This document shows, piece after piece, positions 1 to 24,589 of a DNA stretch of 64,000 nt. The stretch's first letter is position 1, and each line of letters begins with the position of its first letter. The notes under the pieces were generated by a model. It was not told the origin of the DNA and ran no database searches. It worked only from the letters and a program-made list of their open reading frames with translations. Source of the stretch: Pyronema omphalodes (lineage: Eukaryota; Ascomycota; Pezizomycetes; Pezizales; Pyronemataceae); NCBI GenBank assembly GCA_024516155.1, contig JAJJXM010000093.1:62001-126000 (forward strand), read 5' to 3'. Position numbers and translations under genes: made by a program.

Positions 1-362
1 TGCCATCAGGTGAGTACTCGATTTCCAGACCAAGGAAGCGAGAGGCACGGCCAAGGTCCGTCATTGTACTTAGAGCTGAGTGCGAGTTTGATCCTGTCTC
101 CTAAGCGATCCGGAGTAGTATTGAAGATAAGAATGTCATCTACATAGAGCAGCAGTAGCACCCCCGCAAATACGTAGAGGTTCGGGTCTGCAGAGGACTG
201 AACGAAACCGAGAGAGAGGAGATACTCATTGATTTCCTGCCACCACAGACGGGGGGCTTGTTTTAATCCATAAAGGGCTTGCTGTAAGCGCACAATAGAT
301 GACTTTTCCAAACGCGTATCCAACCAGTCGATGCCTTGGGGCATAGCCATATACGTGCAGTC
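1..362 (-). pseudogene. Ty1/copia reverse transcriptase fragment (duplicated)
   Basis: The reverse strand encodes the middle of a copia-type RT, with the family signature ALYGLKQAPRLWW and the catalytic LYVDDILI box. It is the duplicated counterpart of 14391-14752. It is broken at 349-362 (atatacgtgcagtc) by the insertion of the LINE that follows. The rest of the element lies left of the window. Confidence 0.93.
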
Positions 363-3029
363 TTATTTATTTATTTCTTTATTCATACACGCATCCAACT
401 GTAAGGTTATGGCGGAATCAACAAATTTAATACAATGTTGAGAACCTGGGGGCGATGCCAGGTCCCCACTGGGTAAGCCCCAGAGCTGTCTATGTGGGTG
501 GGAGTGTAGTCTCCCAAGTCTCGCCGTGCAGTTTTTCATCTAGCGTCGTCAGATGCAAGGAGCCCTGTGCGCTCGGAGGCCACCTCGCCGGGTCGATCCC
601 CCATTCCCTCCACCCTTCCCCTCCCATTTTTAACCATTTTTCCGCCTTTACTTCCTCCCCAAATCAAAACAGAGCAAAAGAAAAAGTAACTCCTCCGGGC
701 CACCGTCCCCGCGCCTCCCATCTCTCCCCGCTCTCCGTCCGCGTCGTCAACTCCTCTGCTCCCCCGCGCACCTCCTCCGCTGCTCCCTCCTGTCCGCGCC
801 TCTTCTCCTTCTCTACCTCCGCGCATCATCACCCCTCACTCGTCACCGTCTCCGATCTCCTCTCCCGCACGCCTTTTCATCTTCGCTTCCCCACCCATCT
901 CACGTTCCGCTTGACCTCCTCCAAAGAAACAAAAGAAAACAGGAAAAGTAACCCCTTGTCGTCCCCACGTTGCTCCTCCTGCCTCCTTTGCCTCGCTCCT
1001 CATCCCCTGCGTCTCCCCTCTCTCGCCTTCTCTGCGTCCTGTCCTCGTTCCTCTCCTTCCGACAGCGTCCTCGCTTCCACTCGACCCTCACTCGCCCTAC
1101 TCGTCGTCTATATACATATATATTATATTATTTTTATTTTTATTATTTTTTTTTTTTTTTTTTTTATTTTGATTTTTCATTAGTTATCGTGGGTTTCCGC
1201 GTGCTCGTCCGTCAGGTCCAGCAGCGTCCCGCAGCCCGTTGTCAGTGTATGAGGGGTGTCCTCTTCTGCGGGGTGAGTACTCAACTTCGCGTGTGCCAAT
1301 TCGTCGCCTTGGTGTCCGAGATCATGGTGGACAGAGCTTTCGTTCCGGCAGTCGTATACCAGATCGTGGGGAGAGTCAGTTGGCGTCGTCGGGGGATGTG
1401 CAGTGTGTGGCGTAGTTCAGTCCGCTGTGTGTTAAAGTTTGGGCATGAGAGAATCAGGTGCTTGGAGGTTTCTGGGGGGTGAAGTGGGCAATGGCAGGAG
1501 CGGGAGGGGTATTTGGCGGTGGGAGGGTGTGCTACGCAATCCAAAAAATACCCATCGCCTGTGCGGAGTCCCAGTATGACCGTCGATATCTTTCGCGGGA
1601 CGGTAGTGTATGCGCTATCGAGGCTTTTGCGGTGGGGGGCGTCGTACGTCTTGGGTTTTGGTGATGAAGAGTACCAGTCCACCCAGTCGGTAACATACTG
1701 CTCTCTTACCTGGCGTCTAATCCAGGAGAGGGAAATCGGGGGTGGCGCGGTGGGGTTAATGGAGGTAGCTGTTTTTGCCAGGAGATTGGCGGTGTTGTTC
1801 CCGGTGATGTCTGTGTGGCCGGGGACCCAATGTAGAGTTGCGGATGATCCGGAGCGGTGAAGGGCGGACGCCGTCGTGAGGATCGAGAGGGCGAGTTCCT
1901 GGCCCGGACCGTAGGAGGAGCGGGAGGCGCGGAGGATGGCTGCCTAATTGTCGGTGAATATGTGTATTTGGCGTTGGGTGTGTCTGTTGAGGGTGATGGT
2001 TCTTTGGCAGGTCGTGAGGCAGTCGTGTATCGCTCTAAGCTCAGCGTCAAATACTTCGGTTGTATCGCCCATCGGGATAAGTTCTTCCACTCGGAGAGGT
2101 AGGCCGTCGGTGATGCAATATCCCGCTCCGGTTCTTCCGTTTAGTTGCGAACCGTCAGTGTATGCGATAATGTTGCGGGGGTCTGCGCGGAGGGTCTGGA
2201 GCAGTGTGGTGTGTGCTGTATCTGCCTCTGGCTTCGGGAGGGAGGTGATGTTGATTTTGAGGCGGGGGCGTTCCCATGGGGCGGGATTGGGTTGCGATGT
2301 GTTTTCAATGGTATCGTCAGGTAGCACCCACTTGCTGACGGAGCGGAGCATAGTGACGAGACGAGAGGGGGCCGTGCCTGCTGACTGCCATTGATAGTCA
2401 TATTGGTATGGGCTGCAGATGGAGGAGTGGAAGTGATCGGGGATGGGGAAGGAGGTGGGGCAGCGTTTGACGACGGGGTGATTGGGGGGAAGAGAGAGGA
2501 GACGGAGGACGTATTTGCGAGTGCGGTGGTGTAGGCGGACTGAAACCGGGGGGATAGCTGCTTCGTTGTGTAGAGCTATGATTGGTGTCGAGGTGAAAGC
2601 GTTTAGAATTCGGCGGAGGGCAGAGTTGTGTTGTGTTTGTATTAAGTTGGCGAGGCTTTTTTGCCCCGTCCACCAGATCTCAGAACCAAAGTCGGACCTA
2701 GATATCACACACGCTATGTAAAGTGTTCTCGTCGCAGACAGGGACAAACCTGTTTCGTGACGTACGAGGCTGCGGAGGGCGTTGAGGGACCTAGCGGCGG
2801 CTGTCAGTCTTGTTTTTACATGATATGAGAAGGAGAGTTTTCTGTCAAGATATATTCCAATCCACCGAACTACGTCCGTCCGTCCTCCTTTCGTCACTGG
2901 GACAATGATGGTTCCATTTGGCAAGCGTACGTTTATGGCATCGGTGAGTGAGTCAGTGCGGGAGCGGTGAAAGTGCAGCAGCTCCGATTTCGAATCATCC
3001 AATGCTACAGCATTTGCTTGGGCCCAGTC
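363..3029 (-). mobile_element. LINE LA3, 3' half (family A, AAAT tail)
   Basis: Read on the reverse strand this is the 3' part of a Tad1-type LINE: end of RT, RNase H, a long 3' UTR (363-1179) and a tail of TTTA repeats on the + strand at 363-380. It is a near-perfect copy of 14753-17420. On its 5' side it is broken by TGE1, whose left border (cagtc then TGTCCC) is the same as at 17416-17421. The other half of the LINE is not present after TGE1, which agrees with a recombined junction. Confidence 0.9.
1180..3029 (-). pseudogene. LINE ORF2 C-terminal part: RT end and RNase H, broken
   Basis: The reverse strand shows the end of the RT domain and a type I RNase H with YTDGSQ and the DAELRAIHDC helix. 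An in-frame TAG directly follows FTDN (near 1944), exactly where related copies read a glutamine codon; CAG to TAG would do this. Downstream the frame resumes with the WVPGHTDIPGN-like region and the CxC-x3-H...H-x4-C motif typical of LINE ORF2 C termini, then is shifted again near 1300. The protein cannot be functional. Confidence 0.9.
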
Positions 3030-4149
3030 TGTCCCACCCTATATTGTGTGAGTATAGAATAGGTAACATGTATAACATTTAGAGAACATGGCAAACTCGA
3101 CAGGAGAATGAATAATAAGGTTAGTATTCCCGGGCCGGAACCCCCTGAGGAGCTCCAGCTAGCCACGTCACGTGATTCGTGACTTTCCGAAAGGACCTCA
3201 CGAGGATCCTGGCCCGAGGCGTCGCTACCTGTTCTTCACTATCAGTTTGGGAGGTTCACAGATGGATGGGAACGAGTATCAACTTACCTCATGGGTGTCG
3301 ACTTACCCATGAGAAAACTACAGACGACGCGGATGGAGAACAGAAGACGACGGCGAAGGGACACATCCTTATACTTGAGGATGTGTTCCACCAAGCACGG
3401 CTACCAGAGGGCTTGCAAGAGAAGGGAATTCTCAGGAGCATGCAAGGCAAGCGAATGGGATCATCCAAGGTCTGAGTTGGACGGATAGTCGGCCAAGGAA
3501 CAGGGCAGAGTCTAGTCAGCCAACAGGAGTGGAGCTCAGGACAAGGGTCAAGATTGCGTCAGCATGAGACGACGTTCTGCAGCAAGGAACACCACTCAGG
3601 GAAACTGTTGGATGGAACTGATATGACGCGACCTTAGGCCAATGACTACCAACTGCAAGATAAGACGGCGTTTGCGTACACATCAGGGTGTGGCTGCGCG
3701 CAAGTGCGCGCAGGTGGGGCAAATGACATCACACAGGAATGTGACGGGGCAGAGCGCTCCGGTAAGGCATAGTCTGCCTTATGATGTCAGATTCCTTCAC
3801 TCGCAATCGAGATTCTCTAGGGAGATCTATGATCAAGACGACTCATAAGATATATGACTCACATGTCATTATCAGAGGAGTCATTGCATTATGCGCTCAA
3901 GTGGAGTAACCCTTCACTAGGCGCTTAACCCCAATACCTGATTGAAAGGTGTGGTAGCACGGCGAGGAATGTCAAGGATTAATCTGACACGAAGGTCATC
4001 ATGCAAGTGAGCAATTAATATGATTGCGCATGCAGCATGACGCGAGTTATCAGCAGATTTGTCAAAGAATTGACTCACGTCTTATCTCCTAAGCTTAGTT
4101 TGGAAGTTTGTTCCCTTGGGAAGTCTGGGCGAACTTGTAGACGAACGTC
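3030..4149 (+). other. TGE1 leader with several perfect inverted repeats
   Basis: A 1.1-kb non-coding leader. Perfect 9-bp inverted repeats are visible at 3288-3296/3305-3313 (ctcatgggt), 3361-3369/3378-3386 (acacatcct) and 3694-3702/3705-3713 (ctgcgcgca). No long reading frame of recognisable function is present. By position this would be U3-like if the element is an LTR. Confidence 0.6.
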
Positions 4150-4156
4150 TATAAAA
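4150..4156 (+). promoter_or_regulatory. TATA box of TGE1
   Basis: The heptamer tataaaa stands about 215 bp before the ATG of the only ORF of the element. It is conserved in TGE2 in the same context (near 18541). Confidence 0.55.
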
Positions 4157-4367
4157 GACCCTAAGTCTTCCCACCGTCTCCTCCAGCATCAGCAACTTGA
4201 TCTCTTGTTACGACATATCTTATCTACACCATATACCTCGGGTGAGACCCTTAAGTTTATTCGGCCTGTGATCGATTAGTTTACTTTCGATCCAGTGCTC
4301 GCCCCCCTTTCTCCTCGTCTGTAGTTGCGCAGACTCCTCTCTTTATCTTGTTAAGAACATCTCTACC

Positions 4368-5765
4368 ATGTCTCAACGCAATCTCGACTCTTTCAGGTTC
4401 AGGAACACCATTAACGTCGGGTCCCCTCCTCCACCTTCCCCTGAAAGATCCACACCAACACCTAGTGGAGCGCGCAAACGCCCCACCATCCCACCTGCCG
4501 ATAATGAACCAAGACCGGCCACCGCCGGCGTTTCACTTGCCGAACCAGACCGCCAACTCCTCCTCCAGCTATCCCTACAAGTCGAGCGAATGGAGAAAGC
4601 CTTGCTTTCTTCCCAAGCCACCAGCACCAACCGCATACGCGAACTCGAGAAACAAGTCGCCTCGATCACGGCAGAGCTGAACCGTACGCGCCGACAACTC
4701 ACCGCCACCCCTGCACCCCACATGCCACCTGGCGACTCCACCGCAAGAGGAAGGTCCACCACTCGGGCCCCCACCCCAGCCGCCCCCAGACCACAGAAAC
4801 CAACCACCGGCAACCTTACCTGGGCTGAACGCGTCTCCGCATCAGTTGGAGGCAAGGATCAACAATTCACAACCGTGTCGCGCAAAAAGAAGAAGCCAAC
4901 ACCGGCCCCCATCATCCCGAAAGCCCTCCCCCGTATCGAAAGGGAGATTATCATCACACTGGACAACCCAACACTGACTAGGAGTCGAGAAAAAGAAGCC
5001 ACCAACGTGTTGATGTGCCTCAACAAAGACGTACTGATGGCCAACGATATCGCTCTTCCCACACTCACTCTTGCAAGGATCAATGACCACAACAAACTGG
5101 TATTGACGACCAACCCTACCACCCCGGCCTCTGCGTACGAACCATATATGCAGATGCTCCTCAACAGAATTCACTGGCTGAAACCAATATCCGGAACCAA
5201 CAATAGCCGCTGGACTAAATTCCTAGTCCACAACATCCCAACCGCAGCCAATGGTGTAGGCGTGCAAAAGCTTATCGAATCGACCTACCCCACCCTCAAA
5301 CTCATGCAAGAACCTCGCTGGCTAGTTCCAGATGAGCGCCGCCTCAACAAACAAGCCTCCACCATGGTGATCGCCCTTAGTGGTTTGGTCAACCTCAACC
5401 AAATCGGCACCAACACCCTCCTTCTCTGTAATCGTAAGTGCCGGATTACCGAATACTTCTCCTGGACACCAACCACCCAATGCCGCAACTGCCAGGTTTA
5501 CGGCCACCACACCTCCCTCTGCAAAGCGGAGAAACCCACCTGCGCCATCTGCGCCCAACCACACAGCAGCAAGGACCACCAATGCCCTGTCCCCTCCTGT
5601 CGCGCCGGAAAGTCCTGCACCCACCCACCTGTGAAATGCGCCCTTTGCAGTGCTGCTCACCCAGCAACCGACCCTCTTTGCCCCGTACGGATCAAACTTC
5701 TCCAGGCCGTGAAGGGCAAGGCCCCCGACGCTGATAATGATTTGTCTATGGAGCGCGAGCTCTAA
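4368..5765 (+). CDS. Gag-like zinc-knuckle protein of TGE1 (LINE ORF1 homologue)
   Basis: The 465-residue ORF starts at ATG 4368 (context taccATGtct), the start shared with TGE2. A Pro/Ser-rich head is followed by a predicted coiled coil (about 67-110, with RIRELEKQVASITAEL). A TWAERV motif (near 151) is also seen in fungal LINE ORF1 proteins. The C-terminal zinc array spans about 372-455: CRNCQVYGHHTSLC is a perfect C-x2-C-x4-H-x4-C, followed by CAICAQPH...HQC and CALCSAAH...C. The LINE ORF1 proteins of this window carry the same three-part array after a similar TEYF/TEFF motif, so I infer a nucleic-acid-binding protein derived from LINE ORF1. No RT, protease or integrase accompanies it. The frame is intact. 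Confidence 0.85.
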   Translation: MSQRNLDSFRFRNTINVGSPPPPSPERSTPTPSGARKRPTIPPADNEPRPATAGVSLAEPDRQLLLQLSLQVERMEKALLSSQATSTNRIRELEKQVASITAELNRTRRQLTATPAPHMPPGDSTARGRSTTRAPTPAAPRPQKPTTGNLTWAERVSASVGGKDQQFTTVSRKKKKPTPAPIIPKALPRIEREIIITLDNPTLTRSREKEATNVLMCLNKDVLMANDIALPTLTLARINDHNKLVLTTNPTTPASAYEPYMQMLLNRIHWLKPISGTNNSRWTKFLVHNIPTAANGVGVQKLIESTYPTLKLMQEPRWLVPDERRLNKQASTMVIALSGLVNLNQIGTNTLLLCNRKCRITEYFSWTPTTQCRNCQVYGHHTSLCKAEKPTCAICAQPHSSKDHQCPVPSCRAGKSCTHPPVKCALCSAAHPATDPLCPVRIKLLQAVKGKAPDADNDLSMEREL

Positions 5766-6189
5766 TGACTGCACAAATATCTTTCCACACTTGACAAACT
5801 CCCCACTTGACCCGCGTAATTCGTAGCTTTTCCTTTGTTTGTCTTTGTTTTTGAAAGGGCTAGTTTAGGTTTCCTTTGTAGGGTTTATGTGTTTTGTTTT
5901 TGTTTCTGTTTTTGTTTGTAATACCCTGGGCATAGCCGGACCTCCTGTACATAGTATTATAGGTCGCGCGGGTGGTTGTATCCCAGAGCAACTGCGGTGT
6001 TGCAGGGTATGGGCATGAAGTAGGTGGAGCGCAATAGCCATAGTAGCTCTAGTCGCAATAAAAGAAGATCAGATTAGTTTTACTCCCTAGCTTCTTGGGA
6101 ACTCTATTAGTTGATTATCTATCTCGCGAACGAAGCATTGACTGATCGAACAAACCTCTGTATTGAAAGCCTCAATACCCAGGTTCACA
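5766..6189 (+). terminator. 3' region of TGE1 with poly(A) signal
   Basis: Non-coding tail, T-rich at first. An AATAAA lies at 6057-6062, about 290 bp after the stop codon. The region ends in GGTTCACA. The same 3' region returns at 21,8xx-22266 and 31277-31584 in TGE2. Confidence 0.6.
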
Positions 6190-6405
6190 CTACCCCTACC
6201 AAGGAACTTACCACACGGCAACGGCGACCCCCCCCCCTGCATTCTCAACAACGAGCACCGAAACCCCCGGTTTTCTCATCGGATTCGGATTCGCAGCACT
6301 CTGTTACGTTATTCTCTGAACTTTCAGGGAATTCTACGTTGTTTTTGTTGACTTTTGTCGCAAAATCAGAGTTTTCACGAGTTTTGGCTTACCCCACCTC
6401 ACGAA

Positions 6406-8163
6406 ATGTCGCCAAAACAACGACAGAACAACGCCCGACCATCGAAACGGTCCGAAAACGCGTACAATGTTCTAGCCGACCTTCCTCATGATGGATCTAA
6501 TCCTACATTTGATGAAAGAGATGGAAAAGTTGATGAAGTTGATGGAAACCTCGCTGGAAAGCCCTTCCAGAGCGTGGTCTTGGCAGGATCACCAGTTCCT
6601 TCGGCTTCAACACACCAGCAGCAAGCGACACCTGAGCACAACCGATTCAGAGAATTTCGCCGCGATCTGGTTATTGCTATGCGAGACGCTATCGAAAAAG
6701 ACGACAACGACAGCAGCTTGAGCGCCCTGTTCTGTGAACATGAACCGCTTTTCACAGGAGCAAGCTTCCTGGGGATTCAACAGATCCACCGGGACACACA
6801 GCGACGCTTCAATACCCTCGATGACACCATACGCAACAACAGCGATGAGATGCGCCACAGATTCGACGTCATGATGACGAACTTCGACATTCTGACCGGC
6901 GAAAACACGAAGCTGCGCGCAGCATACGACTCTACACAGGCAGAAACAGCAGCTCTCAAGGCTGCTGTGGACGCCCTGACGAAGAAAATCGACGAACAGC
7001 AACAAGTCATTTCGGCGCCCCCCTCACCGAACCTCACGGCCTCTTCCTCAGCGATGGAAGAGATGACTATGCAACTGTCCGTCGTCCAACATGACATTCA
7101 GGATGTCCTGGACGCTGTTCGCAACCCTCCTGGCAAGAGAAAGCGAAGGGGAAGCGACCAGAACACCGAACCCACCTCATCGACAAACAGAAGACCGGTG
7201 CACCACAAACCGAGAGCGGCATCACCGGTGCGAAGCCTGATGCACTCGAAACATGCGACTACCGCCACCCAGGACAAGCTTGATGCCCTCAAGCCTATGT
7301 CCCCCCTACCTCTCCTCGCGATCACGTCGACCGAAGCGACACCGGAACCTCACCCTGCCAGTCCATCTGCTCAGGACACACCTCTACCCGACGCCCCAAG
7401 CACTGCCCCTGCTGCTACCGCCTCACGAATCAACTGGCAAAAAACGGATTGGGACACTTCTACCAGGGAGCTACAAACCCTCGCCGAGGCCAGTCACCCG
7501 TACTGGACACACCTCCGCGCAAACCCATCCGCAAGTAACCTAGACGAATGGGCCGCCCTCATTCGTGACTCCATTCACGCGGCTGCCCAAAAGGCGACAC
7601 CCACCCTCACACCAACTCCCCGCTCGAAGAGGTGGTGGACGGAGGAACTAAGCACGACTCGACGGAACATGCAGAGCGCAAGAAAGAGGTGGAAATCAAC
7701 TCGCCTCCCGGCCCATCATGCAGAGTACAAGCGCCTCCGAAACACCCATTACCGCAGAGTACGACACGCAAAGGACTCATTGTGGAAAGAATACCTGGCC
7801 GCCGCAGAAGGCCCCGATGTCTGGGCCGCCTTCAGATACACAAACCCCCGGCGCGCCCAACTGACCCCCCCAATAAAAACCCAGGTAGGTGGGATAGACA
7901 AGGTACACGTTGATTTCGAAGGCCAAATAAACGCCTTTCAGGCTCTTTTCCCACCCCCCCCCCACTGCCCCTCCGACTCAAATCCCCCCTACACACCCCA
8001 TCATCCCCTGGCACACAATCACCCCCGAAGAAATACGCCACGCTACTTACTCCTCCTCCCCCAAGAAAGCCCCCGGTCCCGACATGATAACGTTCGCATG
8101 CCTGAGGAGAGCCTACGATGCAATCCCCAAGGTGTTCGATGCGCTGTATGCAAGGCTAGGTGA
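6406..8163 (+). pseudogene. In-frame fusion of N-type ORF1 to LINE ORF2
   Basis: The first eukaryotic start is ATG 6406; upstream in-frame sequence lacks an ATG. Residues 1-~343 match the coiled-coil ORF1 of elements N2-N5: coiled coil about 130-200 and basic GKRKRRGSDQN near 243. After the motif DAPSTAPA the frame passes directly into ORF2 at RINWQKTDWD, the linker that normally follows the endonuclease. Zinc knuckles and the whole endonuclease are missing. The frame ends at a TGA after the start of the RT domain (GPDMITFACL is out of frame or altered around 8040-8163), where related copies carry about 60 more bases. The fusion may reflect a deletion in the RNA or DNA parent. Confidence 0.85.
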
Positions 8164-8171
8164 CAAATGAT

Positions 8172-10565
8172 ACCACCCAAGCTACAGCGCAGTTAAGGCC
8201 TATCGACCCATCGCGTTGCTGAACTGCATGGGAAAACTCTTGGAAAAACTTATGGCAACCCGGCTCAGCCTTATGGCGGAGTCACACAACATACTGCATG
8301 CAGACCAGATAGGCGGGCGCCTCAAACGCTCGGCTATCGACGCTGCAATGGCCCTAACGCACGAGGTCGAAGCGAATGCGGGGCGCCGCATGGTGACCTC
8401 CGCGCTATTTTTAGATGTGCGAGGAGCCTTCGACAATGTCTCTTCCGCGCGCCTCCTCACGACCATGCGTACACTGGGCTGCCCAACCGCAGTTGTCTCC
8501 TGGTGTGCAACTTTCCTAAACGACAGGACAACAGCCCTATCATTCGACGGACGAACAGACACACAGCGACCTATTAGGACGGGCATCCCCCAAGGTTCCC
8601 CGGCGTCCCCCATTCTCTTCCTCATCTACCTGCGCCCTCTATTTGAGAAATTACAAACGACTCACCCCACGTTATGGACCCCGAGCTACATGGACGACGT
8701 AGCTCTCGTTGCACACGGGCGTACCAGAGAAGAAAATGCCCGCGAACTGGAAGTCGCGGCTCGCACCGCCTTCGAATGGGCCCGAACAAATGCTGTAGCA
8801 TTCGACGATTCGAAATCGGAGCTGCTACACTTTCACCGCTCCCGCACAGAAACACTCACCGACGCCATAAACGTACGCTTGCCAAACGGAACCATCATTG
8901 CCCCAGGGACGAAAGGAGGACGGACGGACGTGGTTCGGTGGATCGGGATATATTTTCACAGAAAACTCTCCTTCTCATATCATGGAAAAACGAGACTGAC
9001 GGCCGCCGTTAGGTCCCTCAACGCCCTCCGAAGCCTTGTCCGTCACGGAACAGGTTTGTCCCCGTCTGCGACGAGAACACTTTACATAGCGTTTGTGCTG
9101 TCTAGGTCCGACTTTGGTTCCGAGACCTGGTGGACAGGGCAAAAAAGCCTCGCCAATTCACTACAAACGCAACGAAACTCTGCCCTCCGCCGAATTCTGA
9201 ACGCTTTCGCCTCGATGCCAATCTTAGCCCTACACAACGAAGCAGCTATCCCCCCGGTTTCAGTCCGCCTACACCACCGCACTCGCAAATACGTCCTCCG
9301 CCTCCTCCCTCTCCCCCCCAATCACCCTGTCGTCAGACGCTGCCCCTCCTCCTTCCCCATTCCCGATCACTTCCACTCCTCCATCTGCAGCCCATACGAG
9401 TATGACTATCAATGGCAGTCACCAGGCACGGCCCCCTCCCGTCTCGTCACTATGCTCCGCTCCGTCAGCAAGTGGGTGCTACCTGACTACATCATCGAAA
9501 ACACATCGCAACCCAATCCTGCCCCATGGGAGCGCCCCCGCCTCAAAATCAACATCACCTCCCTCCCGAAGCCAGAGGCGGCTACAGCACACACAACACT
9601 TCTCCAGACCCTCCGCGCAGACCCCCGCAACATTATCGCATACACTGACGGTACACAACTAAATGGAAGAACCGGAGCGGGATATTGCATCACCGACGGT
9701 CTACCTCGCCGAGTGGAAGAACTCATCCCAATGGGCGATACAACCGAAGTATTTGACGCTGAGCTTAGAGCGATACACGACTGCCTTACGACCTGCCAAA
9801 AAACTATCACCCTCAACAGGCACACCCGCCGCAAAATACACATTTTCACAGACAATCAAGCAGCCATCCTCCGCGCCTCCCTCTCCTCCTACGGTCCCGG
9901 CCAAGAACTGGCCCTCTCGATCCTCACGACGGTGTCCGCTCTTCGCCGATCCGGATCCTCCGTAACTCTACATTGGGTCCCTGGCCACACAGACATCCCC
10001 GGGAACGACACAGCCGATCTCCTGGCAAAAACAGCTACCTCCCTTAATCCCACCGCGCCTCCCCCGATTTCCCTCTCCTGGGTTAGACGCCAGGGACGAG
10101 AACAATATGTCACCGACTGGGTAAACTGGTACTCTTCATGACCAAAGCCCAAGACGTACGACGCCCCCCACCGCAAAAGACTCGACAACGCATACACTAC
10201 CGTCCCGCGAAAGATATCGACGGCCATACTGGGACTCCGCACAGGCCATGGCTATTTTGTGGACTGACTAGCACACCCCCCCACCGCCAAATACCCCTCC
10301 CGCTCCTGTCATTGCCCACTACATCCCCCACAAACCCCCAAACACCTAATCCTCTCCTGCCCGAACTTTAACACACAGCGGACTGAACTACGCCACACAC
10401 TGCACATCCCCCGACGACGCCAACTGACTCTCCCCACGATCTTGAATACGACCGCCGGCACGAAAGCTCTGTCCACCATGATCTCGGACACCAAGGTGGC
10501 GACCGCCGAATGGGCACACGCGAAGTTGAGTACTCACCCCGCAGACGAGGACACCCCTCGTACAC
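8172..10565 (+). pseudogene. LINE ORF2: RT and RNase H, with nonsense mutations
   Basis: Continuation of ORF2 after a short deletion near 8163-8190. The RT shows ALFLDVRGAFDNVSS, GIPQGSPASPILF and SYMDDVALVA (catalytic aspartates). RNase H shows YTDGTQ, DAELRAIHDC, FTDNQAAI and GNDTADLLAK, so all four acidic positions are present. A TGA follows WYSS at 10138-10140, and a second TGA stands in GYFVD*LAH near 10266, where other copies have cysteine. The final residues are cut by the gypsy junction at about 10565. Confidence 0.88.
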
Positions 10566-12954: not shown

Positions 12955-12974
12955 TTTTTTTCTTTTCCTTTTTG

Positions 12975-13527
12975 CCCAGAGCCTTAGGGACTTTTTTCTT
13001 TTTGCCCAGAACCTTAGGGACTTTTTTCTTTTTGCCCAAAACCTTAGGGACTTTTTTCTTTTTGCCCAGAACCTTAGGGACTTTTTTCTTTTTGCCCAGA
13101 ACCTTAGGGACTTTTTTCTTTTTGCCCAGAACCTTTGGGACTTTTTTCTTTTTGCCCAGAACCTTAGGGACTTTTTTCTTTTTGCCCAGAACCTTAGGGA
13201 CTTTTTTCTTTTTGCCCAAAACGTTAGGGACTTTTTTCTTTCTGCCCAGAACCTTAGGGACTTTTTTCTTTTTGCCCAAAACCTTAGGGACTTTTTTCTT
13301 TCTGCCCAGAACCTCAGGGACTTTTTTCTTTTTGCCCAGAACCTTAGGGACTTTTTTCTTTCTGCCCAGAACCTTAGGGACTTTTTTCTTTTTGCCCAAA
13401 ACCTTAGGGACTTTTTTCTTTCTGCCCAGAACCTTAGGGACTTTTTTCTTTTTGCCCAGAACCTTAGGGACTTTTTTCTTTTTGCCCAGAACCTTAGGGA
13501 CTTTTTTTCTTTTTGCCCAGAACCTTT

Positions 13528-13580
<53 letters not shown>
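12975..13580. repeat. 30-bp minisatellite, about 20 copies
   Basis: The unit is gcccagaaccttagggac followed by a T-rich 12-mer (TTTTTTCTTTTT). About 20 units run in perfect 30-bp register with scattered single changes (ttt to tct, aga to aaa). The last two units are separated by T runs of about 45 and more bases that reach 13645. Because 30 is a multiple of three, every frame stays open; the Lys-rich repeat KKKKVPKVLG on the reverse strand is a by-product unless shown otherwise. Confidence 0.95.
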
Positions 13581-13581
<1 letters not shown>

Positions 13582-13592
13582 CCAGAACCTTT

Positions 13593-13646
<54 letters not shown>

Positions 13647-14153: not shown

Positions 14154-14752
14154 GTGATGGGGCAGTGACCAAGTAGGCAATGTCGGGTCTTGTTCCAATA
14201 GCCGCATACATTAGAGAGCCAACCATTGAGAGGCAATGCAAGCGGTCCGACAGAGAGGCTTTGGAGTAACTGAAGCTGACATTTTCCAAGTCGACATTTG
14301 GGTCCATCGGGCTGAACACAGGTGTGCAAGCCATCAAGGAGAATCTTTGGAGGACAGTTTCGATGTAACCTTTTTCACTCAGAGCGATACTGCCATCAGG
14401 TGAGTACTCGATTTCCAGACCAAGGAAGCGAGAGGCACGGCCAAGGTCCGTCATTGTACTTAGAGCTGAGTGCGAGTTTGATCCTGTCTCCTAAGCGATC
14501 CGGAGTAGTATTGAAGATAAGAATGTCATCTACATAGAGCAGCAGTAGCACCCCCGCAAATACGTAGAGGTTCGGGTCTGCAGAGGACTGAACGAAACCG
14601 AGAGAGAGGAGATACTCATTGATTTCCTGCCACCACAGACGGGGGGCTTGTTTTAATCCATAAAGGGCTTGCTGTAAGCGCACAATAGATGACTTTTCCA
14701 AACGCGTATCCAACCAGTCGATGCCTTGGGGCATAGCCATATACGTGCAGTC
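14154..14752 (-). pseudogene. Copia RT, 3' two thirds
   Basis: Reverse strand: MPQGIDWLDTRL, ALYGLKQAPRLWW, LYVDDILIF (catalytic YVDD), FLGLEIEYSPDGS, DVENVSFSYS-like spacer and GSLMYAAIGTRPDIAY. There is a frame change near 14440. The frame continues upstream at 51818 once LA1 is removed: DNDCTY there joins AMPQGIDW here, sharing the 14-bp TSD atatacgtgcagtc. Confidence 0.92.
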
Positions 14753-15570
14753 TTATTTATTTATTTCTTTATTCATACACGCATCCAACTGTAAGGTTAT
14801 GGCGGAATCAACAAATTAAATACAATGTTGAGAACCTGGGGGCGATGCCAGGTCCCCACTGGGTAAGCCCCAGAGCTGTCTATGTGGGTGGGAGTGTAGT
14901 CTCCCAAGTCTCGCCGTGCAGTTTTTCATCTAGCGTCGTCAGATGCAAGGAGCCCTGTGCGCTCGGAGGCCACCTCGCCGGGTCGATCCCCCATTCCCTC
15001 CACCCTTCCCCTCCCATTTTTAACCATTTTTCCGCCTTTACTTCCTCCCCAAATCAAAACAGAGCAAAAGAAAAAGTAACTCCTCCGGGCCACCGTCCCC
15101 GCGCCTCCCATCTCTCCCCGCTCTCCGTCCGCGTCGTCAACTCCTCTGCTCCCCCGCGCACCTCCTCCGCTGCTCCCTCCTGTCCGCGCCTCTTCTCCTT
15201 CTCTACCTCCGCGCATCATCACCCCTCACTCGTCACCGTCTCCGATCTCCTCTCCCGCACGCCTTTTCATCTTCGCTTCCCCACCCATCTCACGTTCCGC
15301 TTGACCTCCTCCAAAGAAACAAAAGAAAACAGGAAAAGTAACCCCTTGTCGTCCCCACGTTGCTCCTCCTGCCTCCTTTGCCTCGCTCCTCATCCCCTGC
15401 GTCTCCCCTCTCTCGCCTTCTCTGCGTCCTGTCCTCGTTCCTCTCCTTCCGACAGCGTCCTCGCTTCCACTCGACCCTCACTCGCCCTACTCGTCGTCTA
15501 TATACATATATATTATATTATTTTTATTTTTATTATTTTTTTTTTTTTTTTTTTTTATTTTGATTTTTCA
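14753..15570 (-). other. LA1 3' UTR and tail
   Basis: Non-coding; pyrimidine-rich on the + strand, with a 22-base T run at 15536-15557. The terminal hairpin sequence here is aactgtaaggtt (14788-14799), one base off the aaccgtaaggtt of other family A copies, followed on the element strand by ATGCGTGTATGAAT and AAAT repeats. Long Ser/Pro-rich frames on the + strand are compositional artefacts. Confidence 0.8.
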
Positions 15571-17420
15571 TTAGTTATCGTGGGTTTCCGCGTGCTCGTC
15601 CGTCAGGTCCAGCAGCGTCCCGCAGCCCGTTGTCAGTGTATGAGGGGTGTCCTCTTCTGCGGGGTGAGTACTCAACTTCGCGTGTGCCAATTCGGCGCCT
15701 TGGTGTCCGAGATCATGGTGGACAGAGCTTTCGTTCCGGCAGTCGTATACCAGATCGTGGGGAGAGTCAGTTGGCGTCGTCGGGGGATGTGCAGTGTGTG
15801 GCGTAGTTCAGTCCGCTGTGTGTTAAAGTTTGGGCATGAGAGAATCAGGTGCTTGGAGGTTTCTGGGGGGTGAAGTGGGCAATGGCAGGAGCGGGAGGGG
15901 TATTTGGCGGTGGGAGGGTGTGCTACGCAATCCAAAAAATACCCATCGCCTGTGCGGAGTCCCAGTATGACCGTCGATATCTTTCGCGGGACGGTAGTGT
16001 ATGCGCTATCGAGGCTTTTGCGGTGGGGGGCGTCGTATGTCTTGGGTTTTGGTGATGAAGAGTACCAGTCCACCCAGTCGGTAACATACTGCTCTCTTAC
16101 CTGGCGTCTAATCCAGGAGAGGGAAATCGGGGGTGGCGCGGTGGGGTTAATGGAGGTAGCTGTTTTTGCCAGGAGATCGGCGGTGTTGTTCCCGGTGATG
16201 TCTGTGTGGCCGGGGACCCAATGTAGAGTTGCGGATGATCCGGAGCGGTGAAGGGCGGACGCCGTCGTGAGGATTGAGAGGGCGAGTTCCTGGCCCGGAC
16301 CGTAGGAGGAGCGGGAGGCGCGGAGGATGGCTGCCTAATTGTCGGTGAATATGTGTATTTGGCGTTGGGTGTGTCTGTTGAGGGTGATGGTTCTTTGGCA
16401 GGTCGTGAGGCAGTCGTGTATCGCTCTAAGCTCAGCGTCAAATACTTCGGTTGTATCGCCCATCGGGATAAGTTCTTCCACTCGGAGAGGTAGGCCGTCG
16501 GTGATGCAATATCCCGCTCCGGTTCTTCCGTTTAGTTGCGAACCGTCAGTGTATGCGATAATGTTGCGGGGGTCTGCGCGGAGGGTCTGGAGCAGTGTGG
16601 TGTGTGCTGTATCTGCCTCTGGCTTCGGGAGGGAGGTGATGTTGATTTTGAGGCGGGGGCGTTCCCATGGGGCGGGATTGGGTTGCGATGTGTTTTCAAT
16701 GGTATCGTCAGGTAGCACCCACTTGCTGACGGAGCGGAGCATAGTGACGAGACGAGAGGGGGCCGTGCCTGCTGACTGCCATTGATAGTCATATTGGTAT
16801 GGGCTGCAGATGGAGGAGTGGAAGTGATCGGGGATGGGGAAGGAGGTGGGGCAGCGTTTGACGACGGGGTGATTGGGGGGAAGAGAGAGGAGACGGAGGA
16901 CGTATTTGCGAGTGCGGTGGTGTAGGCGGACTGAAACCGGGGGGATAGCTGCTTCGTTGTGTAGAGCTATGATTGGTGTCGAGGTGAAAGCGTTTAGAAT
17001 TCGGCGGAGGGCAGAGCTGTGTTGTGTTTGTATTAAGTTGGCGAGGCTTTTTTGCCCCGTCCACCAGATCTCAGAACCAAAGTCGGACCTAGATATCACA
17101 CACGCTATGTAAAGTGTTCTCGTCGCAGACAGGGACAAACCTGTTTCGTGACGTACGAGGCTGCGGAGGGCGTTGAGGGACCTAGCGGCGGCTGTCAGTC
17201 TTGTTTTTACATGATATGAGAAGGAGAGTTTTCTGTCAAGATATATTCCAATCCACCGAACTACGTCCGTCCGTCCTCCTTTCGTCACTGGGACAATGAT
17301 GGTTCCATTTGGCAAGCGTACGTTTATGGCATCGGTGAGTGAGTCAGTGCGGGAGCGGTGAAAGTGCAGCAGCTCCGATTTCGAATCATCCAATGCTACA
17401 GCATTTGCTTGGGCCCAGTC
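15571..17420 (-). pseudogene. LA1 ORF2, C-terminal third (RT end, RNase H)
   Basis: Same content as the duplicated copy at 1180-3029, including the TAG after FTDN (near 16335) and a frame loss near 15690. The stop codon of the family (…HDN*) is at 15571-15573. Upstream the frame breaks at cagtc (17416-17420) where TGE2 is inserted and resumes at 31590. Confidence 0.92.
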
Positions 17421-19850
17421 TGTCCCACCCTATATTGTGTGAGTATAGAATAGGTAACATGTATAACATTTAGAGAACATGGCAAACTCGACAGGAGAAT
17501 GAATAATAAGGTTAGTATTCCCGGGCCGGAACCCCCTGAGGAGCTCCAGCTAGCCACGTCACGTGATTCGTGACTTTCCGAAAGGACCTCATGAGGATCC
17601 TGGCCCGAGGCGTCGCTACCTGTTCTTCACTATCAGTTTGGGAGGTTCACAGATGGATGGGAACGAGTATCAACTTACCTCATGGGTGTCGACTTACCCA
17701 TGAGAAAACTACAGACGACGCGGATGGAGAACAGAAGACGACGGCGAAGGGACACATCCTTATACTTGAGGATGTGTTCCACCAAGCACGGCTACCAGAG
17801 GGCTTGCAAGAGAAGGGAATTCTCAGGAGCATGCAAGGCAAGCGAATGGGATCATCCAAGGTCTGAGTTGGACGGATAGTCGGCCAAGGAACAGGGCAGA
17901 GTCTAGTCAGCCAACAGGAGTGGAGCTCAGGACAAGGGTCAAGATTGCGTCAGCATGAGACGACGTTCTGCAGCAAGGAACACCACTCAGGGAAACGGTT
18001 GGATGGAACTGATATGACGCGACCTTAGGCCAATGACTACCAACTGCAAGATAAGACGGCGTTTGCGTACACATCAGGGTGTGGCTGCGCGCAAGTGCGC
18101 GCAGGTGGGGCAAATGACATCACACAGGAATGTGACGGGGCAGAGCGCTCCGGTAAGGCATAGTCTGCCTTATGATGTCAGATTCCTTCACTCGCAATCG
18201 AGATTCTCTAGGGAGATCTATGATCAAGACGACTCATAAGATATATGACTCACATGTCATTATCAGAGGAGTCATTGCATTATGCGCTCAAGTGGAGTAA
18301 CCCTTCACTAGGCGCTTAACCCCAATACCTGATTGAAAGGTGTGGTAGCACGGCGAGGAATGTCAAGGATTAATCTGACACGAAGGTCATCATGCAAGTG
18401 AGCAATTAATATGATTGCGCATGCAGCATGACGCGAGTTATCAGCAGATTTGTCAAAGAATTGACTCACGTCTTATCTCCTAAGCTTAGTTTGGAAGTTG
18501 GTTCCCTTGGGAAGTCTGGGCGAACTTGTAGACGAAAGTCTATAAAAGACCCTAAGTCTTCCCACCGTCTCCTCCAGCATCAGCAACTTGATCTCTTGTT
18601 ACGACATATCCTATCTACACCATATACCTCGAGAGAGACCCTTAAGTTTATTCGGCCTGTGATCGATTAGTTTACTTTCGATCCAGTGCTTGCCCCCCTT
18701 TTTCCTCGTCTGTAGTTGCGCAGACTCCTCTCTTTATCTTGTTGAGAACATCTCTACCATGTCTCAACGCAGTCTCGACACTTTCAGGTTCAGGAACACC
18801 GTTAACGTCGGGTCCCCTCCTCCACCGTCCCCCAAAAGATCCACACCGACACCTAGTGGAGCGCGTAAACGCCCCACTATCCCACCTGCCGATAACGAAC
18901 CCAGACCAGCCACCGCCGGAGTATCACTCGCCGAACCCGATCGCCAACTCCTCCTCCAGCTTTCCCTACAAGTCGAGCGAATGGAGAAAGCCCTGCTTTC
19001 CTCACAAGCCACCAGCACCAACCGCATACGCGAACTCGAAAAACAAGTCGCCTCCATTACGGCAGAGCTGAACCGTACGCGCCGACAACTCACCGCTACC
19101 CCTGAACCTCACATGCAACCCGGCAACCCGACTGAAAGGGGAAGGTCCACCGCCCGGACCCCCACCCCAGCCGCCCCCAAACCACAGAGACCAACCACCG
19201 GCAACCTTACCTGGGCTGAACGCGTCAGCGCATCAGTCGACGGCAAGAACCAACCATGTACCACCGTGTCCAAGAAGAAGAAGAAACAGACACCGGCCCC
19301 CATCATCCCGAAAGCCCTTCCCCGCATCGAACGGGAACTTATCATCACACTAGACAACACAAAGACCACCACTAGTCGAGACAAGGTAGCCACTATTATG
19401 CTATCCCATATCAACGACACCCTCATCAAATCCAAGGCCATTCCTCTCCCACCCTTCATTCTAGCCAGGTTCAATGATCACCATAAATTTGTGTTGACAA
19501 CCAATCCTTCCACCCCCGCCTCTGCATACGCGCCATACATGCAGATACTCCTCACCGAAATCCATTACATGAATCCCATCTCCGGAACCACCAATAGCCG
19601 CTGGACAAAATTCCTTGTCCACAACATTCCAACCGACACCACAGGTACAGCCATGAAACAGCTTATTGAAGCGATCTACCCCACCCTACAACTTATGCAA
19701 GAGCCACGCTGGCTAGTTCCAGCTGACCGCCGTCTCAACAAACAAGCCTCAACAATGGTGATTGCCCTTAACGGTGTAGTCAACCTTAACCAGATCGGCA
19801 CCAACACCCTCCTTCTCTATAATCGCAAATGCCGTATTACAGAATACTTC

Positions 19851-21831
19851 AGGATTTCACACGGCAACGGCGACCCCCCCCCCTGCGTTTGCAACAACCA
19901 GCACCGAAACCATCGATTTTTCCATCGGATTCGGATTCGCAGCACTCATTTACGTACCTCTGTGAATTTCCAGAGAGTTCTACGTTGATTTCGTTGATTT
20001 TCGCCGCGAAATCAGAGTTTTCACGCGTTTTGGCTTACCCCACCACGCGAAATGCCACCAAAACCTCGCCAACTCCGCGCCCCACGGCCCAAGCAGTCTG
20101 GGAACGCGTTCCAAGCCCTTGTGGACCTTCCGGAAGATAGATCCGATTCTACTTTTGATGGAAGAGACGGAAAAGTGGATGAAAGTGATGGATTCAGCGC
20201 CGGAAACACGCTCCAGCGCGCGCCTTCTGTAGCCTCAGAAGCACACCACCACCACCCCCACGATACGCCAACGATTATGGCGATTCACCAGTTCGCAAAT
20301 GGCGCAAGGAGCTGGTGCACGAAGCTGTCAGCGCATATGTCTTCGGGGCGGAAATCGACAGCAGTGCTGAAAACATCCTTCAGTACTGCGCAGCCAACGC
20401 GACAGTAGGAGCCCACCTTGACTGGCTCATCGAACAGCGCACAGGCGCAATCGGCGACGAGATGGAAAGCGCCTTCCAAACTGTCTTCGATGAACTCGAC
20501 ACAATGACAAGAAAGATGGACAAGATGGCCGTGGAAGAGGTGGCTCTACGCAAGGCCTACCACAAGTCCATCGCCGAAACAGCAGCCCTCAAAGCTGCCG
20601 TTGACACCCTCACAAAACAGCTCGAGGAACGCATTGTTCCACCGGCCCTCCCTCTTCCAGGCCCGCCGACCTCCCCCTCCGCTATGGAGGAGATGACGAT
20701 GCAACTCTCCCATGTCCAGCACGATATTCAGGACGTTCTGCACGCTGTACGCAATCCTCCCGGGAAAAGAAAGCGACGAGGGAGCGATCAGAACACCGGA
20801 CCAACCACGCCGACAAACCAACGACCGGCAATCAACAAGAAACGAGATGCATCACCGGAGCACAGCCTGATGCACTCACAGCACGCGACCTCCGCCGCCC
20901 AGGATGCGCTTGATGGTCTGATGCTCAAGTATCCCCCGCGCCCTCTCGCGATAACCTCGACCGAAGCAACCACCAACCCCGCCCCTGACAGCGATGCTGC
21001 TCAGGACACAACTCTACCCGATGCTCCCACCACCACTGCCCTGGCGGACAAGGATGGATGGAAGACTGTGGAGGGGAAGGAAGCGCAGAAGAAGAGGAGG
21101 AACGACAAGGCCGACAAGAAACGCGCGACGGAGAACGGCAACAAACCCCCGACGACAAAGACTGGTGGACGGGGAATGACTACCCACCAACCGAAACCGA
21201 AAACGAATACCCCCTCCACGAAGAAGACTTGGGCAGAAGTCGTGAAGAGCGGAGGTATCAATGTCCAGATTGTGCTGGGGAATGGCAATCTTGGACTGAC
21301 AACACCACCGACAAGAAGGGGAGAGAGGCGAGGGGGGGCAGCGAGAAGACTGAGGAAGAAGGAAGGAGAAGGGGAGAGAGGGGAGGAGAAGCGGGGCAGG
21401 GCGGGCCCGGGTGTCTCAAAGGGCAAAGAGTCAGGAGACACTGGCGGAGGAGTTGAGAGAGGGGAGGAGAGTGGGGGCGTAGGTGGCCCGGCGGCTGGTT
21501 AACTTTGCTTTGGTTTCGTTTTTGCTTTGTGGAGGAAATAAAGGCGGCAAAATGGTTAAAAATGGGAGGGGAAGGGTGCAGGAAATGGGGGAACGACCCG
21601 GCGAGGTGGCCTCCGAGCGTACAGGGCTCCTGGAACAGACGACGCTTGACGAACAGAAGCACAACGAGACTTGGGGGTCTACAACCCCACACCCTAACGA
21701 CAAGCTCTGGGGCATACCCAGTGAGAGCCTGGCCTGACACCCGGGTTTCTTAATTTTGTATTTACTGTAGATTCCGCCATAACCTTACGGTTGGATGCGT
21801 GTATGAGTTAATAAATAAATAAATAAATAAA
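19851..21831 (+). mobile_element. N1: ORF1-only LINE derivative, AAAT tail (1981 bp)
   Basis: TSD tacagaatacttc at 19838-19850 and 21832-21844. The 5' end has the CACACGGCAACGGCGACC plus poly(C) signature; the 3' end has the family A hairpin (aaccttacggtt, 21781-21792) and AAAT repeats. No endonuclease or RT. It sits in the TGE2 gene just before the zinc knuckles. Confidence 0.93.
20052..21502 (+). pseudogene. N1 coiled-coil ORF1-like gene, one frameshift
   Basis: Start ATG 20052 (MPPKPRQLR). The frame changes around 20250-20310 and then runs open to TAA at 21500-21502. Coiled-coil segment with ETAALKAAVDTLTKQLEER, basic GKRKRRGSDQN, KTWAEVVKSGGINVQIV and a Gly/Arg/Glu-rich end, as in N2-N5, but clearly more diverged than those are from each other. 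Confidence 0.8.
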
Positions 21832-22678
21832 TACAGAATACTTCTCATGGACGCCAGTCACACAATGCCGCAACTGCCAAGCTTATGGCCACCACACTGC
21901 TCTCTGCAAAGCAGAGAAACCCACTTGCGCTATCTGCGCCCAACCACACCACACCAAGGAGCACCAATGCCCTGTCCCCTCTTGTCCCGCCGGAAAATCC
22001 TGCATCCACCCACCTATGAAATGCGCTCTGTGCAGTGCTGCTCACACAGCAACCGACCCACTTTGCCCCGTACGCATCAAACACCTCCCGGCCGGGAAAG
22101 GCAAGGCCCCCGACACCGATAATGATTTGTCCATGGAGCGCGAGATTTAATGACAACACAAATGTCTTACAACACCTATCAAACTCCCTACTTGACCCGC
22201 GTAAATCGTAGCTCTTCTTTGTTTCTTTTTGTTTGTGAAAGGGCTAGTTTAGGTTTCCTTTGTAGGTTTGTTTGTTTGTTCTCTCATTACTTGTTTGCAA
22301 CCCGAAGGTTATGACAAGGGACAGATAAATACAAAAGAGAAGAAGAAAGAAATGTAAAAGCAAAAACCCAGTCTCGAAGTACCCGTGACTCGCACCCAGC
22401 AAAGAGCGACCCCCCCCCTGCCTTTTCAACAACCACGCCGAAATCGCAAGATTTTATCGCGGATTATTGTTCGGCAGCCCCGAATTACCTATTCGCAGCA
22501 TTCCCAGATCAGGCCCTCTCTTTTTCGTTGAGTTTTCATCGAAAAAGAGTTTTTGGGCCCCTGAGAAAAGCCCCGCGAACCGGTTCCATCAACACCACTC
22601 TCCACCCACATCAACAACCATCATTTCAATCGCGGATTCCTTGTCGCTACCGCAGAAACAACTTGTTCCGAACTTCCG

Positions 22679-24589
22679 ATGCCCACCCGATCCTCCACTG
22701 TTGAGAAACAGCCCCTCCCCCCCGACAAAGCGCCCCCTCGAGCGCTCGCGAAAGAAAAACGCGCTAACGCAGAGCCGCACGAGTCCGACGCGTCCGGCGT
22801 TGAGATGCACGTAGACACGTGCTCTGACGTCAGCGAGGATTCCAGCGACGACGACGCGTCTCCCCGAGACAGCTCCCCAACGCCAACTTCTCGCAACACC
22901 ACCAACGCCCCACCCAAAACACCCCACAACAAAAAACCCCTCCCTGAAAACTCCGACACCCCCGATCAACTGAGCAACAATGACCCCAAATACTCCATCC
23001 AACAAACCACCGGAAAACAGAAAAAACGCCCCGCCGCCTCCACTGCCCATACTATCACCCATATCGCCGAAGACTCCACCCCCGTTCCTGCACTCGTCAA
23101 ACGACTCCACCCCGACATCGCTCCGATTAACGCCACACCTCCCAGCAACGCCGACCTCGCTCAATCCATCGACGTCCTCCACCACAATCTTGCCACCACC
23201 GCGGACATGTTTCGTCACGCCGACCAGACAACGAATGACAGAATCAACAAAGCGTTCAAGACAATCAACAAGAACCAGTCCCTCCTCCAATCCATCTACG
23301 ATGCCGTCCAACTCCTCGCCCCGTCCCTCCTACCGAAAGGAACAGCTACCGCCGTGTCCCCCACCCCCGTCTCCGCATCCCCCACCCCCCTCGAGACCAC
23401 GAGCCCCGATACCCAGCCCGTTAACGCCCCTCTCGACTTACCCTCCAAACATGCCCCCCGCCTCAGCGAAGCCGAGTACTGGAAGCAGAGGTGCTTGAAC
23501 GCCGAAGCTGAACTCCGGAAGGACGAGCTCCCTCCTCCCCCTCACCTACCCCCTCCCCCACCCCAGGCGAACGAACCGTGGCAAGGACCAATACCCTCGT
23601 CCGTCAAGCTGTTCAAAGAGAAAGCCGCTGCCCCATCAACGACCCCCCCTAAGACCACCAAACCCAACCCCCAACGCAAGAACTCCCCCCGCGTCCAAGA
23701 CATTGTGATCCCCTGCCCTGACCCCCGTGCCCTGCCCGATAGCTCTAAGATCGCCATTGGATTAGCTGTGAACGAAGCCCTACACAAGGGGAAGGTGGAA
23801 GGAAACATCATGATGGTTAGGAAAAATATCAACGGAAGCCTCATGCTTACCCCCTCCCCGAACACATCCATTACCGATCTCACCCCCCACCTGTCTGTTA
23901 TCCACGCCGCTGCCTGCACAGTCCACCCGAACCTCTTGCCCCCCCGACTTAACGAAAAATGGTATAAGCTGGCAGTCCACGGAATCCCCACGGACTACTA
24001 CGAGGACACCGCCGAGGGTATGCAAAAATTGCAGCAAGAAATCGAGACGAACCACAAAGTACGCCTGACACAACCCCCAAGGTACATCTCTCACCCGGAC
24101 AAGCGTGTTGGTAAGACCGCCTCCAGTGTGATGATCGCACTGAAGTCCAGCGAGGAATACAACCTCCTTGAGAGAACAAAGGTGACAGTATTATTCGAAC
24201 AACGCAAGGTGACAGAATTCTTCATCGCCCGTTCCATTGACCAATGCCGCAGGTGCCAGAAATTTGGACATCATCATGCAATCTTCCCAGCTGACAATGG
24301 CCCCGCTTGCGCGATATGCGCCGCCCCTCACCCCACCGAATATCACCAATGCGGCCAGTGTCCCACAATCCAGGGCCGCAAATGTCAACACACCCTCTAC
24401 AAGTGTGCCAAGTGTGTCGCCGCTGGCTTCACAGACGTCCACCACGCCGCATACAGCACCCGCTGCCCCGTCAAAGTGAACGTCGTCAGGGAAGCCTGGC
24501 AGAAGACTCGCCCGGAGACAACACCCCTAGACGCCATCCCCTCCGAAATAAACCCCAACGCCGACACCACCATGACCGCTGATGAATAG
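22679..24589 (+). CDS. LA2 ORF1 protein (gag-like, zinc knuckles)
   Basis: 636 residues from ATG 22679 (cttccgATG). An acidic, Pro-rich N-terminal half is followed by a helical stretch (MFRHADQTTNDRINKAF) and a conserved core with WYKLAVHGIPTDYY and PPRYISHPDKRVGKTASS near 420-490. The C-terminal zinc array starts near 522: CRRCQKFGHHHAIF has Phe in place of the last Cys of the first knuckle (LA1 has Cys), then CAICAAPHPTEYHQC and CAKC...H. In LINEs ORF1 binds the element RNA in a cytoplasmic particle. The last codon region overlaps ORF2 by 8 nt in the sequence ATGAATAG. Confidence 0.9.
   Translation: MPTRSSTVEKQPLPPDKAPPRALAKEKRANAEPHESDASGVEMHVDTCSDVSEDSSDDDASPRDSSPTPTSRNTTNAPPKTPHNKKPLPENSDTPDQLSNNDPKYSIQQTTGKQKKRPAASTAHTITHIAEDSTPVPALVKRLHPDIAPINATPPSNADLAQSIDVLHHNLATTADMFRHADQTTNDRINKAFKTINKNQSLLQSIYDAVQLLAPSLLPKGTATAVSPTPVSASPTPLETTSPDTQPVNAPLDLPSKHAPRLSEAEYWKQRCLNAEAELRKDELPPPPHLPPPPPQANEPWQGPIPSSVKLFKEKAAAPSTTPPKTTKPNPQRKNSPRVQDIVIPCPDPRALPDSSKIAIGLAVNEALHKGKVEGNIMMVRKNINGSLMLTPSPNTSITDLTPHLSVIHAAACTVHPNLLPPRLNEKWYKLAVHGIPTDYYEDTAEGMQKLQQEIETNHKVRLTQPPRYISHPDKRVGKTASSVMIALKSSEEYNLLERTKVTVLFEQRKVTEFFIARSIDQCRRCQKFGHHHAIFPADNGPACAICAAPHPTEYHQCGQCPTIQGRKCQHTLYKCAKCVAAGFTDVHHAAYSTRCPVKVNVVREAWQKTRPETTPLDAIPSEINPNADTTMTADE

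Follow-up and report, generated by a model that had tools for sequence, protein, structure and literature searches.

The window analyzed here is a stretch of 64,000 nucleotides from the fungus Pyronema omphalodes (contig JAJJXM010000093.1, positions 62,001 to 126,000 of the forward strand), and the subject of this work is a 3160-bp piece at window positions 3030-6189, referred to as copy 1. An earlier note had taken this piece for a single element of constant size with TG...CA ends and a 5-bp target-site duplication (TSD). Its only gene resembles ORF1, the first open reading frame (ORF) of long interspersed nuclear elements (LINEs). The length of 3160 bp and the ends (first letters TGTCCCACCC, last letters GGTTCACA) were reproduced from the sequence, and a single ORF of 465 codons was found at 4368-5765. 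Considering all observations together, the piece is very probably composed of two nested elements, i.e., the long terminal repeat (LTR) of a Gypsy retrotransposon and, inserted into it at a fixed site, a LINE derivative that encodes ORF1 only, termed the unit in the following. The gene-bearing part does not belong to the LTR but was inserted separately, and it has a target-site repeat, a 3' tail and a history of its own. The features of copy 1 are as follows.

3030-4285, + strand: Gypsy LTR, 5' part, comprising U3, the beginning of the transcribed region and the left target-site sequence; unit-free copies match positions 1-1257 of the 3160-bp query and continue at 3038
4150-4157, + strand: putative TATA box of the LTR, TATAAAAG; other LTRs have the same sequence or one-base changes
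4188-4285, + strand: probable leader of the LTR transcript, with a putative start at 4188 (within 2 bp), placed by a second leader in L043 that begins at the 4188 equivalent
4274-4285, + strand: left copy of the target-site repeat, GATTAGTTTACT
4286-6071, + strand: the insert, an ORF1-only LINE-type unit of 1786 bp, delimited by a 5' end motif found 43 times genome-wide and by 3' ends and tails
4368-5765, + strand: ORF of 465 amino acids, a LINE ORF1-type zinc-knuckle protein without Pfam match
6006-6071, + strand: 3' end common to the unit and its partner LINE, with AATAAA and AGATC (alignment of three unit and four LINE 3' ends)
6072-6084, + strand: right copy of the target-site repeat, in copy 1 GATTAGTTTTACT
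6085-6189, + strand: 3' remainder of the LTR, ending in GGTTCACA; in unit-free LTRs it directly follows the 5' part

The genome (60.8 Mb in 232 contigs, the window being part of it) was searched with the 3160-bp piece, a check that the earlier note had proposed to tell an LTR from a stand-alone element. At least 73 matching pieces were obtained from the best 40 of 624 candidates scored, and they follow three patterns: full or nearly full length, positions 1-1257 joined directly to 3038-3160, and positions from about 1241 to 3051 alone. Pieces of the second, unit-free pattern come in pairs about 7.53 kb apart. In the two pairs that were read (contigs C28 and C204), all four LTRs measure 1356-1358 bp and run from TG to CA. 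The 5' LTRs are followed by CTATAAACTTAAGG and the 3' LTRs are preceded by a purine tract, and both the internal start and the purine tract are constant at the LTR borders. A gag ORF lies behind the LTR in C184, and a similar gag at locus L012 is followed by protease and reverse transcriptase (RT), as identified by Pfam for L012. Because unit-free TG...CA pairs flank an internal region with gag, protease and RT, the outer 1.36 kb is, judged by its sequence, the LTR of a Gypsy/Ty3 retrotransposon, an assignment assembled from pieces of different copies. TG...CA ends and direct pairs around a gag/pol region are accompanied by a 5-bp target duplication, the latter seen for one insertion event only. 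Instead of a stand-alone element, the search returned LTR pairs around an internal region without the ORF. Nor is 3160 bp a constant size: the four unit-free LTRs are far shorter, and arrays of inserts make other LTRs longer. The insertion site of the LTR is also seen in its empty form, as CATTC, in a related LINE copy of the window (reverse strand, about 8774-8778). The reverse nesting occurs as well: at L053/L054 (C226:143000-144000) and L060 (C211:103800-104160), the ORF of a unit is interrupted by LTRs of the same family.

A second copy in the window, copy 2, is interrupted and spans 17421-31584. It comprises the following features.

17416-17420, + strand: LTR TSD CAGTC, left of copy 2
17421-18676, + strand: 5' LTR part, 99.4% identical to copy 1, within a segmental duplication
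18677-31457, + strand: ORF1-only unit in three pieces (18677-19850, 21832-22277, 31256-31457) split by other insertions; its 5' end at C226:80677 corresponds to window 18677
31477-31584, + strand: 3' remainder of the LTR
31585-31589, + strand: LTR TSD CAGTC, right of copy 2

In comparison with copy 1, the LTR parts of copy 2 are 99.4% and 99.1% identical and the ORF-bearing part 84.7%, 87.3% and, over the last 202 bp, 96.5%. Since its identity is below that of the LTR parts, the ORF-bearing part has a history of its own, and these values would suit separate insertions into two LTRs, or conversion. The 3029 bp to the left of each copy are 99.8% identical, so that what had been read as two LTR insertions counts as one, duplicated. 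CAGTC flanks copy 2 on both sides, as had been claimed, and stands only to the left of copy 1, which has another right flank. Copy 2 looks like a solo LTR. The proposal of a giant solo LTR carrying a gene therefore holds for the ends and the 5-bp TSD, which are those of an LTR, and fails for the gene, which is a separate insertion. A TG...CA pair of ends with a 5-bp TSD does not prove that everything between them is one element. The segmental duplication comprises window positions 1-4285 and 14391-18676, whose right ends differ. Directly to the right of copy 1, an unexplained stretch of 20 bp (6190-6209) separates it from another LINE that begins there with its 5' end, and the expected CAGTC is absent.

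The unit ends mostly in AATAAA, a few A or C and one to three AGATC-like units. Its ORF carries a cysteine/histidine array that we take to be of the zinc-knuckle type, and a Pfam domain search with the 465 amino acids gave no match. The ORF is intact in 18 of 26 units examined. Among these 18, the ratio of nonsynonymous to synonymous substitution rates (dN/dS) has a median of 0.24 and a range of 0.16-0.39 (121 of 153 pairs, with dS > 0.05). By this measure the ORF is under purifying selection, and the unit appears to code for a maintained protein. A protein search with the unit ORF identified 112 relatives among 7990 candidates scored, namely 106 JGI proteins (45-66% identity) and six proteins of Maublancomyces gigas (31-43%). 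With a single ORF of 465 amino acids in 1786 bp, no RT, and a 3' end in common with an autonomous LINE, the unit is built as an ORF1-only element.

This autonomous partner LINE was found behind units in C7, C184, C213 and C112, and has an ORF1 of its own (492 amino acids in C7) and an ORF2. Exo_endo_phos_2, RVT_1 and RNase_H domains were matched by Pfam in pieces of L012 and L024, and open frames of 1265-1270 amino acids are present in seven copies. LINE and unit have the last ~65 nt in common, and the unit ORF is 43% identical in amino acids to the ORF1 of the partner (L012) over 441 aligned positions. In their endonuclease region, LINE copies form one group with 87-100% and another with 74-81% identity to the query. 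Both groups have members that start at LTR-LINE junctions, as judged by coordinates. The partner thus combines endonuclease, RT and RNase H with insertions at one sequence, as a site-specific non-LTR element does. Its anatomy is presumably compatible with the Tad1 clade, which we regard as a candidate. The LINE at window 40125-44045 is a different one, with an ORF2 just 26-33% identical to that of the partner.

Unit and LINE insert at the same point of the LTR, between 4285 and 4286 in copy 1. All 27 junctions read lie at this point, although these loci were chosen for matching LTR plus unit and are no independent test of site use, which is provided by the pattern counts. Counts of both elements rest on full-length 5' ends, with 5'-truncated copies outside them. 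The unit 5' end occurs 43 times genome-wide (reversed control, 0): 32 copies are located at the LTR site, ten directly behind another unit or LINE on a regenerated site, and one elsewhere. A pattern for the LTR-unit junction matched 29 of the 43, one of which (C112:547912) belongs to an array and is preceded by a leader piece. Individual reading of the remaining 14 gave three LTR junctions with gaps (C112:551555, C12, C31), seven unit-unit junctions, three LINE-unit junctions (C112:1690968 and two in C185) and the one elsewhere (C211). Arrays of two to three units, some partly read and each unit behind a copy of the target repeat, are found in C167 (two loci), C184, C112, C9 and C172. For the LINE, the 5' end was counted 29 times, in every case behind an LTR leader, a unit or a LINE: 17 match the LTR-LINE junction, eight stand behind a unit (seven read, C185:141817 by coordinates), two behind a LINE and two behind degenerate LTRs. 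Upstream sequence is rearranged at four of the 17 (L072, L076, L082 and L083). On the basis of these junctions, the full-length LINE is shown to use the same LTR site as the unit. The intact LTR target was found 342 times genome-wide (at most three mismatches; reversed control, 0), and among the matches listed many are spaced one provirus length apart.

Three alternatives to insertion of the unit at this site by retrotransposition were weighed. First, the spread of units could be due mainly to gene conversion or recombination between LTRs. The LTRs are abundant and similar, rearranged ones occur (L037, L072, L083), and copies 1 and 2 of the window have LTR parts but not units in common, all in favor of such a route. 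We nevertheless regard it as quite improbable: tails vary among copies, as fresh reverse-transcription events would give, one unit is located outside an LTR, and the start point is shared exactly by a LINE with a different 5' end. Moreover, among young units an identity of 98-99% contrasts with 94-96% for the 5' parts of the LTRs around them.

The 3160 bp could also be a giant form of the LTR in which the gene is integral and is copied along with the LTR by Gypsy retrotransposition. Unit-bearing LTRs do end properly, there are 5', 3' and solo LTRs among them, and one provirus, recognized as such by spacing (C162), seems to have units in both LTRs. In this very provirus, however, the LTR parts are 99.2% and the units 97.3% identical, and the tails differ. 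In the proviruses of C42, C167 and C213 a unit is present in one LTR and the intact target in its mate, with LTR 5' parts 95.9, 97.8 and 99.4% identical, respectively. In the provirus at C185:158000-168657 (L025, L095), the 5' LTR contains a unit and the 3' LTR the start of a full-length LINE, at 96.7% identity. Because mates are empty or LINE-bearing and the C162 units are less alike than the LTR parts around them, units can insert after Gypsy integration. Such mate cases exist, and the sample says nothing on how common they are. C203 had been considered as a further provirus pair and was dropped from the mates, its putative mate having the target and the LTR 3' part and no match to the LTR 5' part. 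Identities of unit and LTR are uncorrelated (rho 0.11, p 0.23; 120 pairs from 16 loci, pairs that are not independent, so that p is a guide only), in a comparison that left out window copy 2, L015, L026, L027 and L028. Together with the tandem units within one LTR, these observations largely refute the giant LTR as the main route, and we consider it very improbable.

Finally, an independent element that captured a LINE ORF1 and is moved in trans by an LTR-type integrase, as the earlier note had also proposed, is scarcely conceivable: the TG...CA ends and 5-bp TSD of copy 2 would suit it, but unit-free LTR pairs bear the same ends and refute such a chimera, the ends of the unit itself are of LINE type (a target repeat of about 12 bp, a tail of repeats), and the empty provirus mates, uncorrelated identities and tandem inserts in one LTR contradict it as well.

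For the nested LINE derivative, the following mechanism is proposed. The endonuclease of the LINE ORF2 would nick the LTR at GATC/GATTAG, and the RNA of the unit, with GATC in its tail, would be copied at the nick by target-primed reverse transcription. As the putative start of LTR transcription is about 100 bp upstream of the site, the insert would be transcribed from the LTR promoter and need none of its own. Its RNA would carry the LTR leader, and a match of this leader to that of the next LTR would yield precise 5' junctions. At L043, the LTR runs to GATCGAT and is followed by a second leader. This second leader starts at the 4188 equivalent, 38 bp downstream of the initial T in the putative TATA box, deviates in sequence from the first one and continues into a unit. 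At L028, a leader piece lies between two units, directly behind the target repeat. Both arrangements are expected if the template RNA begins at the LTR start. The rarity with which left and right target repeats agree (see below) suggests that the last bases of the left one come with the element, as an RNA carrying the leader would give. We infer that the unit is a half-LINE mobilized by the LTR-specific LINE, and that both are transcribed from the LTR promoter. The arrangement could then represent parasitism on three tiers. At its base would be a Gypsy element, on which a LINE would depend by targeting nothing but the transcribed start of the Gypsy LTR and exploiting the LTR promoter. The third tier would be an ORF1-only satellite, with a protein maintained by selection for helping or capturing the LINE machinery. 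This extended reading is tentative, a real possibility that falls somewhat short of an expectation. If it is true, exact targeting of a foreign promoter takes the place of a promoter within the inserting element.

Several observations weigh against this picture or limit it. Clean leader-carrying junctions number only two. L072, L076 and L083 had been considered as off-target insertions carrying an LTR leader and were rejected as leader evidence, since their 3' sides are ordinary LTR and deletions are as likely. At L082 the (AATA)n tail of another element is located at the leader, and the stretch examined there yielded no LINE 3' end. The combination of a GGACGAG leader with a TTGAACT target is found beside units, but is common away from units too, and so gives no hint on whether leaders next to units had been exchanged for that of the template. 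The sole off-target unit among the 43 (L047, C211:105940-106240) lies in an antisense Gypsy gag at GGATCAGA, a site that resembles the unit's own GATCAGATTAG junction. The 5'-truncated units of L048 (C35:5300-5610) and L055/L056 (C188:404600-405800) have the same non-LTR sequence on their left, with ordinary LTR on the right in C188. Left and right target repeats are identical at only six of 20 sites compared, a comparison that left out window copy 2 and sites with a LINE or unit as right neighbor. Where the right repeat is not GATTAGTTTACT, the left one equals it at one of 15 sites, and since such agreement is rare, the true target duplication may be about 8 bp. All but C213 of the five mates fetched were picked for an empty target or a LINE already seen at the right distance. 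As their ORF1s are just 43% identical, the unit is probably no recent deletion product of the partner LINE and seems to be an old lineage. Mobilization of the unit by the LINE is inferred from the common site and tail, and the mechanism is a proposal read from sequence.

Two further repeats were observed in the window. Positions 12963-13644 form an array of short-period direct repeats. Stretches of about 1.2-1.8 kb at 29395-31229, 34648-36424, 37437-39297, 46300-47495 and 6210-7420, about 92-98% alike, contain an ORF1 (MSPKQRQNNA...) that belongs to a different LINE family. An ORF2 follows the copy at 6210, and the other stretches may be a second ORF1-only derivative.

With these results, the surprising feature of the locus shifts from the ends of the piece to what was inserted, namely a LINE specific for LTRs and its satellite, which encodes ORF1 only. 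At a site just behind the transcription start of an LTR, a LINE would find hundreds of dispensable targets that already possess a promoter and multiply along with Gypsy. Promoter capture by targeting, and the reason why ORF1-only elements retain ORF1, could be tested directly in such a system.

The non-LTR elements R1 and R2 of ribosomal DNA have an exact target in a repeated, transcribed unit and borrow its promoter. As in these elements, one exact site in an abundant transcribed repeat is used here, tandem insertion occurs on the regenerated site, and the promoter of the host repeat would serve the insert. In contrast, the target is the LTR of another retrotransposon and not a ribosomal RNA (rRNA) gene, and an ORF1-only satellite is present. 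Tx1L, a LINE of the Tx1 group, sits in Tx1D, a DNA transposon, and thus likewise has another mobile element as its specific target, which in our case is an LTR behind its promoter. HAL1 (half-L1), like the unit, encodes only ORF1. The unit differs in being site-specific, which HAL1 is not known to be, and its ORF1 is just 43% identical to that of its partner.

In the literature, the Tx group is called target-specific (PMC3747384), HAL1 is described as a non-autonomous LINE relative that encodes only ORF1 (PMC5753468), and FoTeR, MoTeR1 and Cnl1 are listed as telomere-specific LINEs of fungi (PMC12857005). The latter resemble the LINE described here as site-specific or telomere-associated non-LTR elements of fungi, but have a restriction-like endonuclease and telomere targets instead of an Exo_endo_phos-type endonuclease and an LTR. 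Known targets of target-specific LINEs comprise rRNA, U2 snRNA, tRNA and spliced-leader genes, telomeres, microsatellites and some transposons (PMC4640811). No description of an LTR-specific LINE was found among the listed matches from the open-access literature, as judged by titles and the beginnings of abstracts, most subscription papers lying outside this search. The general kind, target-specific LINEs and ORF1-only LINEs, is thus already known, and the LTR as a target, here recognized from its junctions, appears to be new.

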